This document shows, in pieces, positions 29,172-35,321 of a stretch of 64,000 nucleotides of DNA. Numbering within the stretch: position 1 is the first letter of the stretch; each line of letters opens with the position of its first letter. The stretch lies in assembly GCA_018267955.1 (NCBI GenBank), contig JAFDXL010000008.1:1-64000 (forward strand). Direction: 5' to 3'. The stretch is from Bacteroidota bacterium (lineage in GTDB: Bacteria > Bacteroidota > Bacteroidia > Chitinophagales > Chitinophagaceae). Made by a program: the position numbers and the translations under genes. The notes beneath the pieces are model-generated. The model worked only from the letters and a program-made list of their open reading frames with translations, ran no database searches and was not told the origin of the DNA.

Positions 29172-31445
29172 ATGAGGAAAAGCTCTATTCTAAGCCTAAT
29201 ATGCATTTTTGTATTATCTGTTTCGGCCTCGGCACAGCAACAAAAATTATCTCCTGTTACCCGTATGTTTTTGCAGGATCTGGAAAAAGCAAAACAAAAC
29301 GATGTGTTACCTGCAGGTTATGTTTATAAAAAACATGCTGACGGTAATATATATGTGAGTGGTATGATAAAGGTGGATAACCCATCACAGGCTGAAGCTA
29401 AAATAATGGCCATAGGGGCTCAAATAGGCACTAAAGCAGGGAATATATGGACGGTACAGGTTCCTTATGAAAAAATGCCTCAATTCGCGGCTATTACGGG
29501 CATCAGCTATATTCAGCTGGATGAACCCGTTAGGCCAACATTGGATGTTGCACGTAAGACTACAAGGGTAGATTCTGTACATGCAGGATATGGATTGCCT
29601 TATATCTTTTCAGGTGCAGAAGTAGTGGTAGGCGTTATCGATTTCGGTTTTGACTATACACACCCTACTTTTTTTGATACGTCCTACAATCAATATAGGA
29701 TCAAAAAAGTGTGGGAGATGAATGGTACAGGTACTCCTCCCGCAGGCTATACTTATGGACGTGAACTGGTAGGCGATGCGATCATACAAGCTGCGCAGAC
29801 AGATAACGTGAAGCAAACACATGGTACTGCTACGGCAGGTATGGCAGCAGGTTCCGGCTATGGCAGTACAGACAACAGGCAGTTGCGCGGCATGGCCTTC
29901 AACGCAGATATTGTAATGGTGGGTGTACGCCGCGATTCTATTGGTGGGCAATGGATGCAAAGCGGCTTCTCTGATTTTGTAGACGGCATCAAGTATATAT
30001 TTGATTATGCGGCTTCGGTAAATCGCCCTGCAGTTGTAAATATTAGCTGGGGCTCACAGTCAGGCCCGCACGATGGCACTACGCTTATGAACCAGGCTTG
30101 CGATAATCTTTCCGGTTCAGGTAAGATTGTTGTAATGAGTGCTGGTAATGAAGGTGAGGAAAACATCCACCTGTCAAAAACATTTACTGCTACAGATAGC
30201 CTTATAAGTACTTTCCCTTTATTTAATAATTATGGAGGTGGCCCGTCTTACAAACGTACATGGGTAGACGTATGGGGGGAAACCGGAAAATCTTTCTGTG
30301 CCAAAGTGACCATGTATAAGCATGGTGTTATTGGTAATACCACCGGCTATGTTTGCCTGGATGATATGATACATGACGATACACTGATAGGATCATCCGG
30401 TAACGATACTTGTTATGTTCAATTCATTACATCAAGTGCAGATTTCAATGGTAAACCTCGCATTACTGTAAATGTATTTGATAGAACAGTTGATAGCTTT
30501 TTTGTTACAATAAAAGGAACAGACGGTACAATAAATATGTGGGACGAGTATTATTATTATGGCTATGATAAAGGCTACCAGAGCGATTTTCAAACCGGTG
30601 GTGAACCATGGGCAACAGTAGGTAACAGCACATCTACAGTAAGTGACATGGGGGCGGCTCAGTCTGTATTGTTAGTTGGTGCATATGCGTCCAAGATTAA
30701 ATTTACCAATCTGCAAAATCAAAGCCTGTCATACGCCCCAAATTTTGCGGCTGGTGGTCTGGCTGGGTTCTCTAGCCGTGGTCCAATGGTAGATGGCCGT
30801 ATCAAACCGGATATTACTGCACCGGGCCTTACCATAGCAACTTCTATGAACTCATACAACGTTGATTATATTCCGGGCGGTGCAAGTGAAAAATACCTGG
30901 TGCAGAAATACACAAGTTCAAAGGATGGCCGCACTTATTATTTTGGTGAGTTTACAGGTACTTCTGCTTCCGGCCCGGCCGCTTCCGGTATTGTTGCTTT
31001 AATGCTGCAGGCCAATCCGAGGCTTACACCGCAGCAGGTGCATGATATTATCGCAGCAACTGCTATTACAGATAGCTATACGCATCCATTGACTGCCAGT
31101 GGAGATAATAAATGGGGCCATGGTAAGATCAATGCTTATGGCGCTGTGAAAATGGCGCTGCAGCAAAACAGCATTTATCAATTCACCGGTAACAAATTGG
31201 ATTGCATATTATACCCTAATCCAAGTAATGGTAATTTTATGCTAGAATATTCTGGCAACAAATCTGAAGTTCTTACGGTTACAGTTACGAACGTAACAGG
31301 CGGCGTGGTTGCAAATTTTGACTGGAAAGTTACTGCAGGTAATAATAATCATGCATTAGATATTTCCGGTGTTGCTAAAGGAGTTTATATGGTGAAGGTT
31401 GGCGGGGCAAATGGAGCTGTTGCTATAAAAACTGTTGTACAATAA
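29172..31445 (+). CDS. Secreted subtilisin-like protease with type IX sorting domain
   Basis: A 757-residue S8 serine protease exported by the type IX system. A signal peptide ends near SASAQQ. The catalytic triad is Asp157 (VVGVIDFGFDYTHP), His217 (THGTATAGMAAGSG) and Ser598 (GTSASGPAASG), with oxyanion Asn325 in SAGNEG. An inserted beta region lies between residues ~340 and 480. The last ~80 residues, beginning ILYPNPSNGNFMLEY, are a type A sorting domain, which PorU (8070-11831) would remove. It has its own terminator and stands alone. Confidence 0.94.
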   Translation: MRKSSILSLICIFVLSVSASAQQQKLSPVTRMFLQDLEKAKQNDVLPAGYVYKKHADGNIYVSGMIKVDNPSQAEAKIMAIGAQIGTKAGNIWTVQVPYEKMPQFAAITGISYIQLDEPVRPTLDVARKTTRVDSVHAGYGLPYIFSGAEVVVGVIDFGFDYTHPTFFDTSYNQYRIKKVWEMNGTGTPPAGYTYGRELVGDAIIQAAQTDNVKQTHGTATAGMAAGSGYGSTDNRQLRGMAFNADIVMVGVRRDSIGGQWMQSGFSDFVDGIKYIFDYAASVNRPAVVNISWGSQSGPHDGTTLMNQACDNLSGSGKIVVMSAGNEGEENIHLSKTFTATDSLISTFPLFNNYGGGPSYKRTWVDVWGETGKSFCAKVTMYKHGVIGNTTGYVCLDDMIHDDTLIGSSGNDTCYVQFITSSADFNGKPRITVNVFDRTVDSFFVTIKGTDGTINMWDEYYYYGYDKGYQSDFQTGGEPWATVGNSTSTVSDMGAAQSVLLVGAYASKIKFTNLQNQSLSYAPNFAAGGLAGFSSRGPMVDGRIKPDITAPGLTIATSMNSYNVDYIPGGASEKYLVQKYTSSKDGRTYYFGEFTGTSASGPAASGIVALMLQANPRLTPQQVHDIIAATAITDSYTHPLTASGDNKWGHGKINAYGAVKMALQQNSIYQFTGNKLDCILYPNPSNGNFMLEYSGNKSEVLTVTVTNVTGGVVANFDWKVTAGNNNHALDISGVAKGVYMVKVGGANGAVAIKTVVQ

Positions 31446-31491: not shown

Positions 31492-32607
31492 TTATTTTAT
31501 GACTGAATACTGTACTTGCACAAGAAAGTAATTCCTGCTGATGTAGTCCTTCCCACTTGTAATGGTTACCACACTTTGTCTATATGCAATACCCGCGCCT
31601 ATTCTTTTAGTAAAGGCATAGCTGAGCCCTGCAGTTACGCCTGGGTCTAGCTGGGGTAGTTTCTTATTACTGCTGCGTAGTTCATCATTGATCTCATCAA
31701 GCTTACGGCCATCAATTAATAAACGTTGCAGGTCTGCACCAATGGTAGCATTGATCTTAGAATGCAATTTAATACTAAGCGCTGGCGAGAATTGCAGGTA
31801 GGGTAGTGTTCTCTTGTGTTGTTCATTCCATGTTTTACTTTCTTCTGACGTTACACTCATAATATGCGATGTATCAGCAGGAGAATTTCCCTGGTCAAAA
31901 GCCAGTGCATTATTTTTTACCTGTACATTTTGGTTGCCTTGCGCATACCCGATGCTGGTTTCTAAAGAAATAGTGCGGGATAGCCTATTGCGAAAGGTAA
32001 CGCCTGCTGCAATGGCGCCTCCGCCGGATACGCCGATCCCCCCATTCAGCGAAAGCCCCATTTTATGCCCTTGCGACGGTAATTCTTCCATAAAAGAATA
32101 AGGCGGTTGCTTTGTTTTTTTGAAAGCATCTGCTATCTCTTTTTTTGAATCAACAATAGGTAAATCCTTTGACGTGTCAATAGTGTTGGTGGTATTGTTG
32201 TTTACTACACTCTCTGCTTCATGGCTTGGTAACGATTGCCTTGTAGTAGTGGCAGTATTCCCGAATGAATAAACAATTAGCTTTGAAATCTTCTTTATAT
32301 CGTTGGTATTGGTATGCGTCGGCGTGACAGATATATTGTTTGCAGCATTTCTTACAACACTTTGATTACTGTTGCCTTCGTGCTTACTGACTACGTTATA
32401 AATATATAGTGAAGTAATAACAATAAGGCTGCCTGCACATGCCGCGGCTGCCCATTGCTTTGTAACGAGAAATGGTAACAGCAACAGCTTTCGCCTTTCT
32501 TTATTATCCAGGCGCTTATTCAAAGAGTCCCAGTTATGTTCATCAAACGGGAATGTCTCCGAAGCCTCAATTTGCTGCAACGCAAGGTCAAACTCCTTAT
32601 TTGTCAT
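31492..32607 (-). CDS. Putative dual-membrane anti-sigma protein
   Basis: A 371-residue protein in three parts. Residues 1-50 are a charged cytoplasmic segment (LALQQIEASETFPFDEHNWD) like the anti-sigma end of Bacteroidota regulators. Residues 51-73 form one membrane helix. A Ser/Thr/Asn-rich linker (about 75-180) leads to a glycine-rich C-terminal region of alternating strands resembling an outer-membrane barrel (GLSLNGGIGVSGGGAIAAGV and onward). If both ends are placed as predicted, it spans both membranes, like the dual-membrane anti-sigma (Dma) proteins described in Bacteroides. It overlaps the ECF sigma gene by 11 bp. Confidence 0.7.
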   Translation of the reverse strand: MTNKEFDLALQQIEASETFPFDEHNWDSLNKRLDNKERRKLLLLPFLVTKQWAAAACAGSLIVITSLYIYNVVSKHEGNSNQSVVRNAANNISVTPTHTNTNDIKKISKLIVYSFGNTATTTRQSLPSHEAESVVNNNTTNTIDTSKDLPIVDSKKEIADAFKKTKQPPYSFMEELPSQGHKMGLSLNGGIGVSGGGAIAAGVTFRNRLSRTISLETSIGYAQGNQNVQVKNNALAFDQGNSPADTSHIMSVTSEESKTWNEQHKRTLPYLQFSPALSIKLHSKINATIGADLQRLLIDGRKLDEINDELRSSNKKLPQLDPGVTAGLSYAFTKRIGAGIAYRQSVVTITSGKDYISRNYFLVQVQYSVIK

Positions 32608-33172
32608 AACGCATCATTTTAGAAGTATGCATTGGTATTCTTTGTTTTAACAGTTCCCTGGCCTGGTTTACATACCACTGAGATGTACCTTCTTTTATAT
32701 TCAGTTTTACTGCGATCTCTTTATGGCTGTATCCATCAAATACATAGAGGTTAAAGACGGTTTTGTGCATGGTGGGCAAGCTGTGTATCAGCGCAATAAG
32801 CTCTTTATAGCTGAGATTTTGTATCGGGCCATGTAAGTCATTGTCTTTTAGATGTGCTGCTTTTTGTTCATCTATTTCATCTAACTGGCTGCTATGTTTA
32901 TGTATTGCCGATCTTAAATTATCGAGGCAGGTATGCACTACTATTCGTTTCATCCATCCTTCGAAGGAGCCTTTGTATTCAAACTGATCGATCCTGGTGA
33001 AGATCTTATAAAAGCCGTCATTCATCCATTGTTCTGCATCTTGTTGATTGGCAGAGTATCTAAAGCATACCTTTAGAAAGTCGCTATAGTAGCGACGATA
33101 CAGGAAGGCTTGCACCTTCCTGTCCCGGTTTTTACAACCTTCTATCAGGTCCTTTTCTGTCAATAACTTCAT
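32597..33172 (-). CDS. ECF-type RNA polymerase sigma factor
   Basis: A sigma-70 family factor of 191 residues. Region 2 (RRYYSDFLKVCFRYSANQQD, then GSFEGWMKRIVVHTCLDNLR) would melt the -10 region. Region 4 (LPTMHKTVFNLYVFDGYSHK, then EIAVKLNIKEGTSQWYVNQA) would read the -35. Start choice: ATG 33172 (MKLLTEKDLIEGC) fits the family; ATG 33220 is possible and would leave only 19 bp to the upstream lipoprotein gene. The overlap with the downstream anti-sigma gene points to tight coupling. Confidence 0.88.
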   Translation of the reverse strand: MKLLTEKDLIEGCKNRDRKVQAFLYRRYYSDFLKVCFRYSANQQDAEQWMNDGFYKIFTRIDQFEYKGSFEGWMKRIVVHTCLDNLRSAIHKHSSQLDEIDEQKAAHLKDNDLHGPIQNLSYKELIALIHSLPTMHKTVFNLYVFDGYSHKEIAVKLNIKEGTSQWYVNQARELLKQRIPMHTSKMMRYDK

Positions 33173-33239
33173 TTCAGTTCGCCAGAATGGGCAGGCTATC
33201 AATTCAGTGGCCTTGTCCATTCTAACGGATATCCTTACC

Positions 33240-33701
33240 TTATCGTATAATAACGGAGTCTTTTCCTGACACTTTCTGGATATGGCAGCAATCTGCATTT
33301 ACGCTATAGGGTTCATCAACTATTTTGACCCCATTTTTATAGCCTTGAAACAACAAATGAACATTGGTTCTTTGATGTCCTTGTACCCAGCCATCTGTTA
33401 GTACAATGTAATTATGACTATAGTTATCATAGCTATACAGCCCGGCTGGCAGTTTGTGTTCGGCCATATCTGTTGTGTAAAAGGAATCGAGGACAACGGG
33501 GTTGTTTGATGAATCAACAACAGATAGTGCAATTGCTACAACATTCATGGTGCACATTACGCTGTCGCAAGGAGGCATTTCAATAACCTGGCAAATGCCG
33601 GTGACGCTGTTGTCGTCTAATGGCTCTACATGCTTAGGTTTGGAACAGCCAAACCATAAACAAGCGCCTATCAGCGTGATGAAAACAATACTATTCTTCA
33701 T
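33240..33701 (-). CDS. Putative lipoprotein, unknown function
   Basis: A 153-residue protein with a short signal and lipobox ending at Cys19 (LWFGCSK). The mature part has further cysteines (CQVIEMPPCDSVMC and DCCHIQK) that may form disulphides, and a predicted beta-rich middle. I recognise no family. It lies directly upstream of the ECF sigma gene on the same strand, so it may be part of that signalling unit or one of its targets. Confidence 0.7.
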   Translation of the reverse strand: MKNSIVFITLIGACLWFGCSKPKHVEPLDDNSVTGICQVIEMPPCDSVMCTMNVVAIALSVVDSSNNPVVLDSFYTTDMAEHKLPAGLYSYDNYSHNYIVLTDGWVQGHQRTNVHLLFQGYKNGVKIVDEPYSVNADCCHIQKVSGKDSVIIR

Positions 33702-33796
33702 AAGGTAACATTTAGGTGTTTAATGTGCGTATATAAGAATAGACGAAGCGCCAGGAATAAACCTTGGTGATAAAAAGGACTTTTTATAAAAAATAA

Positions 33797-33839: not shown

Positions 33840-35321
33840 TTAGATGCTTGCCAATTGCACTTTTTGCTGCAGCTCCAGCATGTGCTCTTTGTATTCTGCG
33901 TCGGTATCCATCAGGTTTTCTACCGTTTGGCAGGAGTGTATTACCGTAGTGTGGTCGAAGCCGCCAAAGTGCTCACCGATGTTCTTAAGAGAGCTTTTGG
34001 TAAATTTCTTGGCCAGGTACATGGTAATCTGGCGGGCCTGCACTACTTCGCGCTTGCGGGTCTTTGCCAGCAGCCTGTCGTATGGCAGGTGGAAATAATC
34101 ACACACCATTTTCTGAATATTCTCGATAGTAACCTCGCGTGCTGACGTCTTCACGAAGTTCTTCATTACACGCTTAGCCAGCTCCAGGTCTATCTCTTTC
34201 TTGTTAAGCGTAGCCTGGGCAAATAAGGCTATCAAAGCGCCTTCCAGCTCACGAACATTGCTTTGTACATTATAAGCAACATATTTTACCACATCTTCCG
34301 GTATATCCAGCCCTTCCTGCTTCATTTTCATGTGCAGTATCTGCTGGCGTGTTTCGAAGTCGGGAGATTGAATGTCTGTGTTCAGGCCCCAGCGAAAACG
34401 ACTCAGCAGGCGCTCTTGCATACCATCCAGGTCTTTCGGAGGTGTGTCGCTCGTAAGGATGATCTGTTTGCCACTCTGATGCAGGTGGTTGAAGATCGCA
34501 AAGAACGCGTCCTGCGTTTTTACGGCAGGCACAAACAAGTGTATATCATCCAGGATCAATACATCTATCAATTGATAGAAATGTATGAAATCGTTGATCT
34601 CGTTATTCTTGGCGTGCTCAATAAACTGGTTGATAAACTTTTCGGCACTTACATACAGCACAGCCTTATTAGGGTGCATCCTGCGTACTTCGTTACCAAT
34701 AGCCTGTACCAGGTGAGTTTTACCCCAACCCACGCCACCAAATATTACCAGCGGGTTGAAAGCGGTTGCAGCAGGCTTTTGAGCTACGTGCAAACCTGCA
34801 GAACGGGCTACGCGGTTACAATCCCCCTCCACATAATTTTCAAATGTGTAGTTGGGATTCAACTGCGGGTCTATCTGCATACGCTTGAGGCCCGGTATAG
34901 CGTAAGGCGTTTTAATATTATGCGGATCGTCCCACTTCAGGGGCATATCTACATAGTTATTCTCCTTGGGGGGCTTGTTGTATGTGCTGCCCGGCATATT
35001 GATAGATGCAGGGTTGCGTTGTGCCGCACTGCTTTCCATCAGGATGCGATATTCAAGGCGGCCATCTTTGCCAAGTATCCTTTTTATTGTTTTACCCAAT
35101 AATTCTACATAGTGTTCTTCCAGCCATTCGTAGAAGAACTGGCTGGGCACCTGTAGTGTGAGAATATTATTATCTAAAGCGACAGCTTTAATGGGTTCGA
35201 ACCATGTCTGATACGTACGCCAGTTCACATTATCCTTGATAATGTTCAGGCATTTTTCCCACGCAGCTTCCGCTTCGTTGTAAATTTTATTAGAAGATGT
35301 ATCGTAAAGGTTTTTATCCAT
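33840..35321 (-). CDS. dnaA: Chromosomal replication initiator protein DnaA
   Basis: DnaA binds the origin and opens it for replication. The 493-residue protein has the four usual domains: the N-terminal helicase-loading domain (to ~95), a linker, an AAA+ ATPase (Walker A GGVGWGKTH at 194-202, Walker B VLILDDIHLF) and the C-terminal DNA-binding domain with the signature GGFDHTTVIHSCQTVENL. Neighbours are a lipoprotein and a metallophosphatase, not dnaN or recF. I found no cluster of DnaA boxes beside it. Confidence 0.97.
   Translation of the reverse strand: MDKNLYDTSSNKIYNEAEAAWEKCLNIIKDNVNWRTYQTWFEPIKAVALDNNILTLQVPSQFFYEWLEEHYVELLGKTIKRILGKDGRLEYRILMESSAAQRNPASINMPGSTYNKPPKENNYVDMPLKWDDPHNIKTPYAIPGLKRMQIDPQLNPNYTFENYVEGDCNRVARSAGLHVAQKPAATAFNPLVIFGGVGWGKTHLVQAIGNEVRRMHPNKAVLYVSAEKFINQFIEHAKNNEINDFIHFYQLIDVLILDDIHLFVPAVKTQDAFFAIFNHLHQSGKQIILTSDTPPKDLDGMQERLLSRFRWGLNTDIQSPDFETRQQILHMKMKQEGLDIPEDVVKYVAYNVQSNVRELEGALIALFAQATLNKKEIDLELAKRVMKNFVKTSAREVTIENIQKMVCDYFHLPYDRLLAKTRKREVVQARQITMYLAKKFTKSSLKNIGEHFGGFDHTTVIHSCQTVENLMDTDAEYKEHMLELQQKVQLASI

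Follow-up and report, generated by a model that had tools for sequence, protein, structure and literature searches.

The window analyzed here (the whole 64,000 nucleotide (nt) stretch, positions 1 to 64,000 of contig JAFDXL010000008.1, assembly GCA_018267955.1, from a Chitinophagaceae bacterium of the Bacteroidota) carries adjacent genes for an extracytoplasmic function (ECF) sigma factor and an anti-sigma protein that is predicted to run from the cytoplasm to the outer membrane (OM). The pair is a member of the published dual-membrane anti-sigma (Dma)/EcfO-Reo architecture and is already known in kind. Together with a cysteine-rich lipoprotein gene it quite probably forms an autoregulated three-gene operon for envelope-stress or surface signaling through an anti-sigma chain that spans two membranes. 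The more surprising result comes from relatives, in which this sigma switch seems to be coupled to the type IX secretion system (T9SS). The features of the locus are listed in Table 1.

Table 1. Features of the sigma/anti-sigma locus (window positions; aa, amino acids).
Feature	Position	Strand	Evidence
Dma-type anti-sigma gene, predicted to be dual-membrane, 371 aa, ATG start	31492..32607	(-)	Open reading frame, alignments, AlphaFold2, PDB matches
Anti-sigma residues 1-49, putative sigma-binding region, probably cytoplasmic	32461..32607	(-)	Two helices, conserved residues
Anti-sigma residues 50-77, inner-membrane helix	32377..32460	(-)	DSSP helix in AlphaFold2 model
Anti-sigma residues 78-182, disordered periplasmic tether, 105 aa	32062..32376	(-)	Low pLDDT
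Anti-sigma residues 183-371, predicted 8-stranded OM-type beta-barrel	31495..32061	(-)	AlphaFold2 and PDB fold matches
ECF sigma factor gene, 191 aa	32597..33172	(-)	Sigma70_r2 E 3.6e-12, Sigma70_r4_2 E 1.4e-10
Cysteine-rich lipoprotein gene, 153 aa	33240..33701	(-)	Lipobox and invariant cysteines, AlphaFold2
Promoter-like element CCAAGG-N16-CGTCTA, ECF-type, conserved	33740..33767	(-)	Genus loci and shuffles

An original prediction, made from the DNA letters, had described the anti-sigma protein as a cytoplasmic segment, one transmembrane (TM) helix, a disordered linker and a barrel-like end, and the AlphaFold2 model displays the same order. The N-terminal region has helices at residues 3-15 and 23-34 (predicted local distance difference test, pLDDT, of 65-77 by block). 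The TM helix follows at 50-77; pLDDT is below 50 over residues 37-60 and again over residues 73-178. The positive charges of the N-terminal region sit ahead of the TM helix, and residues F6, D7 and W26 are nearly invariant in 33 aligned sequences, among which the tether ranges from 103 to 143 aa. The N-terminal region probably binds the sigma factor. The Pfam matches of the protein up to an E-value of 1 contain no FecR family, the domain of anti-sigmas that work with a TonB-dependent receptor.

The C-terminal domain is predicted to be an eight-stranded barrel of the OM type, with strands at 183-193, 198-208, 213-236, 256-282, 285-296, 320-331, 336-345 and 359-370. Block pLDDT is 77-95, with the exception of residues 231-260 (45-59). 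Lack of a closed barrel in a structure prediction had been named beforehand as the outcome that would speak against a two-membrane chain; the top PDB fold matches of the barrel obtained are mostly integral OM barrels, e.g. PagL, OprF, OmpA and OmpW. The score with the Pfam family OMP_b-brl_2 is 17.5 bits against a cut-off of 27, thus the barrel is not visible by Pfam alone. Among the 33 aligned anti-sigma proteins, 18 match this family at E <= 0.1.

The barrel is predicted from the model to insert in the OM, in which case one chain would run from the cytoplasm to the OM. Alternatively, the C-terminal beta domain could be the sensor of an ordinary single-membrane anti-sigma, remaining soluble or unassembled in the periplasm and never entering the OM. 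The tether is short for a span of two membranes, and in the PDB fold search soluble designed barrels fit the model almost as well as OM barrels do. However the top matches are mostly integral OM proteins, and more than half of the aligned proteins show the OMP_b-brl_2 similarity. In addition, relatives from inferred Bacteroidales have an aromatic C-terminus, which is usual for OM barrels. A periplasmic domain of this kind is therefore unlikely. It also disagrees with extracts of the published accounts, where the chains of members are said to extend to the OM or the surface (PMC13088901, PMC13114119).

Selective constraint is strong at both ends of the anti-sigma protein and weaker on the tether: compared with the nearest relative, the N-terminus has a ratio of nonsynonymous to synonymous substitution of 0.14 and the barrel one of 0.135, while the tether reaches 0.36. 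A fast-evolving tether could hold protease sites, and proteolysis is a common release route for anti-sigma factors. The barrel might thus be a porin-like OM protein fused to an anti-sigma without being the sensor, the signal arising elsewhere, e.g. from a periplasmic protease acting on the tether. Yet barrel and N-terminus are equally and strongly constrained within one chain, and fusions to a barrel are found repeatedly in the class, at 24 of 78 loci (described below), so this alternative is quite unlikely.

Of 59 genomes searched with the anti-sigma sequence, 13 give a match at E <= 0.001: its own, 10 of 14 relatives in its genus, and 2 of the 21 other family genomes. A profile built from the 13 proteins matches 86 of 195 family genomes at the same threshold, with numerous partial matches. 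A sigma gene is directly upstream of the anti-sigma gene in 26 of 29 loci from this family search, which include three loci seen previously. It is highly improbable that open reading frame 31492-32607 is a product of chance or an artefact and not an anti-sigma gene: no Pfam anti-sigma family is matched, but the sigma gene is adjacent in nearly all these loci and the N-terminal F, D and W hardly vary. Two further sigma/anti-sigma pairs of the same type are present in the own genome. Their barrel anti-sigma proteins have very long low-complexity tethers, with chain lengths of 747 aa (L044:1720-3963; OMP_b-brl E 1.9e-4, below cut-off) and 629 aa (L045:4214-6103; E 5.3e-8, above cut-off). In one anti-sigma protein, L063:1366-2727, the N-terminal region appears by eye to occur twice, in tandem.

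A profile of the sigma factor, which itself included all three pair-linked sigmas of the own genome, finds these three genes in that genome and matches 135 of 149 class-sampled genomes at E <= 1e-30. Named genomes were scanned with eight sigmas from inferred Bacteroidales as queries, and the best 80 of 522 loci were kept; these include Bacteroides, Phocaeicola, Alistipes, Proteiniphilum and Chryseobacterium. In 74 of these best 80 loci the protein encoded after the sigma fits the barrel anti-sigma profile at E <= 1e-39 (as calculated for one sequence). Five others have no next gene found and one has a short next gene. In a tree of 80 sigmas, the 66 pair-linked ones are split without error from 14 other ECF sigmas of the own genome (support 0.83). 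Named members of the window sigma's clade are Bacteroides, Phocaeicola, Proteiniphilum and Chryseobacterium, and at the same support the window sigma groups with Bacteroides, Phocaeicola and Chryseobacterium sigmas that adjoin barrel anti-sigmas, in keeping with the resemblance to Dma proteins that had been proposed. Profile comparison with eight anti-sigmas of the inferred Bacteroidales gives a match in the barrel columns only (probability 98, E 1.1e-13).

Dma proteins of Bacteroides control vesiculation, and the sigma factors of the Dma family are of group ECF21. The window protein shares with them, in one chain, the N-terminal anti-sigma region, TM helix, long disordered tether and C-terminal barrel, as well as the adjacent ECF sigma gene and a host in the Bacteroidota; extracts of the Dma2 paper place the family solely in this phylum, with a gene organization as at the window locus (PMC13088901). 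The likeness to Dma1 and Dma2 is one of described architecture, and B. thetaiotaomicron is outside the best 80 of 522 loci. Unlike the Dma loci, the window locus has as its neighbor a cysteine-rich lipoprotein gene without a NigD match. The locus had been proposed as a case from a distant branch. It does lie outside Bacteroides, but the distance was overstated, considering the restriction of Dma proteins to the Bacteroidota and the frequency of barrel anti-sigmas in the class.

The second published system is EcfO-Reo of Phocaeicola vulgatus and Bacteroides fragilis. According to extracts of its description, Reo in P. vulgatus reaches from the cytoplasm to the surface, EcfO controls nigD surface lipoproteins, and the locus tag of ecfO is consecutive with that of one nigD (PMC13114119). 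At locus L202 of P. vulgatus ATCC 8482 a sigma/anti-sigma pair adjoins a divergent NigD gene; thus this is very probably the EcfO-Reo locus, identified by gene order and not by locus tag. The window system is similar in its predicted cytoplasm-to-surface anti-sigma and in a lipoprotein gene that adjoins the pair, and differs in the family to which the lipoprotein belongs.

The three genes are transcribed from the minus strand in the order promoter-like element, lipoprotein, ECF sigma, anti-sigma. The open reading frames of sigma and anti-sigma overlap by 11 bp, as was first noted; in 17 other pairs checked the junction is an overlap of 4 to 20 bp, or the genes are one base apart. A 233 aa reading of the sigma gene from 33298 was rejected, the start that can be aligned with homologues being 33172. 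This start is 67 bp past the lipoprotein stop, which leaves no overlap between the sigma and lipoprotein genes. The original prediction looked to relatives for the same three-gene order, and the lipoprotein gene precedes the sigma gene in nine genus relatives (L022-L030, L026 included). It was not found before the sigma gene in L031, L032 and L033, of which L032 is of the same genus. The lipoprotein gene belongs to the sigma/anti-sigma operon.

The lipoprotein ATG starts 39 nt after the last base of the promoter-like element. CGTCT is present upstream of the lipoprotein gene in all 10 genus loci, 44-51 nt ahead of the ATG, and is preceded by CCAAG at a spacing of 17 nt in six loci and 18 nt in three; CCAAG is absent in L030. 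A further 23 loci (L032 and 22 loci of other genera) were scanned for the looser pattern CCAA-N17-19-CGTCT in the 400 nt before the sigma gene. It is present in 11 of them, from seven genera, whereas 200 dinucleotide shuffles average 0.035 such loci and never exceed 1. This pattern was chosen after viewing 300 nt in 20 of the 23 loci, and two of the three loci unseen at that time contain it. All 38 class-level loci lack it.

The exact sequence CCAAG-N17-CGTCTW is found at four sites in the own genome, i.e. the window operon, two positions inside long open reading frames (opposite strand) and C5:225779. At C5:225779 (L274) the ATG of a 180 aa lipoprotein is 43 nt after the element, and a gene for a 179 aa lipoprotein follows. 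The corresponding cluster in a sister genome (G010, C21:6630, L333) has three lipoproteins, with the element 52 nt before the first ATG; the best pair between the two clusters is 73% identical. The CCAAG/CGTCT pattern per se shows no genome-wide enrichment, and 13 of the 87 genus sites listed were inspected. By analogy with EcfO/NigD, these sites are read as those of an autoregulated operon with a small lipoprotein regulon.

The lipoprotein is secreted. It has seven cysteines including the lipobox cysteine C19, and C19, C45, C50, C138 and C139 are invariant in 10 aligned sequences. Its C-terminal part (residues about 50-153) is modeled as a beta-sandwich with block pLDDT of 90-97 from residue 51, and PDB matches of the model are weak. 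There is no Pfam family over cut-off and no NCBIfam match; NigD (NigD_N OB domain and NigD_C beta-sandwich) gives no match to it at E <= 1, and no NigD was found in the own genome. Relatives of the lipoprotein number 18 matches in 13 of 195 genomes, and most are away from the sigma/anti-sigma pair. Two proteins, L023:6551-7357 and L024:9757-10563, carry the lipoprotein domain duplicated head to tail.

With a home-made lipobox rule, a lipoprotein-like gene adjoins the pair in 32 of 66 named loci having both neighbors, versus an expected 15% (calculated from the other 341 genes in these loci, 26 of which are lipoprotein-like). Ten such neighbors at related pairs were tested. Six have NigD_C over cut-off, as does the neighbor at L202; the remaining four are a DUF4840, a DUF4943, an Ig-like match and one without a match. 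A NigD gene beside a sigma of the same type was seen at G404:C16, G444:C1, G477:C93, L199, L202 and L207, and is divergent in five of these six. The lipoprotein had been suggested as a possible third component. A role as output of the sigma factor is more likely for it than one as signaling partner because NigD under EcfO is analogous (extracts of PMC13114119), and surface lipoproteins are the likely output of this sigma.

In the proposed mechanism the N-terminal helices of the anti-sigma protein would hold the ECF sigma at the inner membrane, while the disordered tether would join this part to the barrel in the OM. A change at the OM (barrel misassembly, a ligand or damage) would be passed along the chain, or would cut it, and free the sigma, perhaps through pulling, proteolysis or loss of the barrel. 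Once free, the sigma would read the CCAAG-N17-CGTCTA promoter of its own operon as well as one or more others, which would raise the anti-sigma, the adjacent, putatively surface-located lipoprotein and the unlinked cluster of two to three lipoproteins. The window locus extends dual-membrane anti-sigma signaling beyond gut Bacteroides and supplies a putative promoter together with a small set of candidate lipoprotein targets; sensing by the outer end thereby becomes testable in an organism where NigD was not found.

For the wider family, 80 genomes of the class each contributed one locus with this type of sigma; 40 loci were high-ranking and 40 hand-picked, among the matches listed. A gene follows the sigma gene in 78 loci; its product has a hydrophobic helix at the expected place in 73 and the N-terminal W motif in 69. 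The outer ends of the 78 are 24 barrels, 23 CHU_C (the T9SS type-B signal domain), four PorP fusions and 27 without a recognized fused end, eight of which have PorP as the next gene. The second 40 alone give 13 barrel, 13 CHU_C, one PorP and 13 none. End types were assigned by home-made profiles from members of the first 40, with lowest accepted scores of about 18 bits, and two weak PorP matches were dropped.

CHU_C is over the Pfam cut-off in all ten single-TM anti-sigmas picked by a look at the C-terminus (L138, L141, L146, L149, L151, L152, L155, L158, L162 and L170). Seven of them also have two PKD domains, and five exceed the cut-off of the NCBIfam model of the type-B signal; the home-made profile adds 13 further CHU_C anti-sigmas. 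In three anti-sigmas, all of a single family of genomes, the chain continues into a PorP/SprF barrel (L148:1402-3977, L156:1436-3975 and L159:1566-3985; 61 to 83 bits, cut-off 22.3), and the next gene in all three encodes a lipoprotein-like product with a CHU_C end (27.9-30.8, cut-off 27). In these three the N-terminal region is perhaps repeated, as seen by eye, and the hydrophobic helix comes later, around residue 140-180. Another 13 anti-sigmas are short. The next gene, tested in ten of them, is PorP/SprF in eight (L134, L135, L139, L140, L142, L143, L145 and L153; 206-228 bits) and an OMP_b-brl barrel in two. The protein next to the short anti-sigma of L137 has a T9SS type A domain, and no suitable next gene was found for those of L147 and L154.

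In the part of the sigma tree listed, barrel types do not separate from CHU_C and short types, a mixture suggestive of more than one exchange of the outer end. A plug-in sigma/anti-sigma core may exist in which the outer end is swapped (barrel, CHU_C or PorP/SprF, the latter fused to the anti-sigma or beside it) and the T9SS versions make the secretion system itself the sensor; we put the chances of this at even. The T9SS versions would be inner-membrane-anchored anti-sigmas with a T9SS substrate or receptor as C-terminus, and export, pulling or binding of this end would report T9SS function and set transcription. If these proteins work as they look, a direct wire from a secretion machine to transcription would exist in the Bacteroidota and would account for the matching of secretion load to gene expression.

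Likeness to T9SS type-B C-terminal domain proteins and to PorP/SprF holds for the wider family only, where these domains are on or beside anti-sigmas of the same clade; the window anti-sigma differs in having neither CHU_C nor PorP/SprF by Pfam. Extracts of one paper state that type B substrates bind PorP-like barrels, and treat CHU_C-type proteins as secreted substrates and the barrels as anchors, with no mention there of anti-sigma regions (PMC9143113). A PorP-like barrel is a logical partner for a CHU_C-type anti-sigma. Extracts of other papers list, for P. gingivalis, ECF sigmas whose candidate anti-sigmas are untested (PMC7712824), and report in a flavobacterium promoters with a CGT -10 box that drive T9SS genes and one sigma/anti-sigma pair (PMC9723704). 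No description of a T9SS-domain anti-sigma was found in the literature searched, a search that did not take in the founding Dma paper.

The genes flanking the operon in the window are a dnaA-like gene (33840-35321, named by eye), upstream of the three-gene set, and a convergent plus-strand gene at 29172-31445. The latter encodes a subtilase with a T9SS type A sorting domain, thus the window genome probably has a T9SS.
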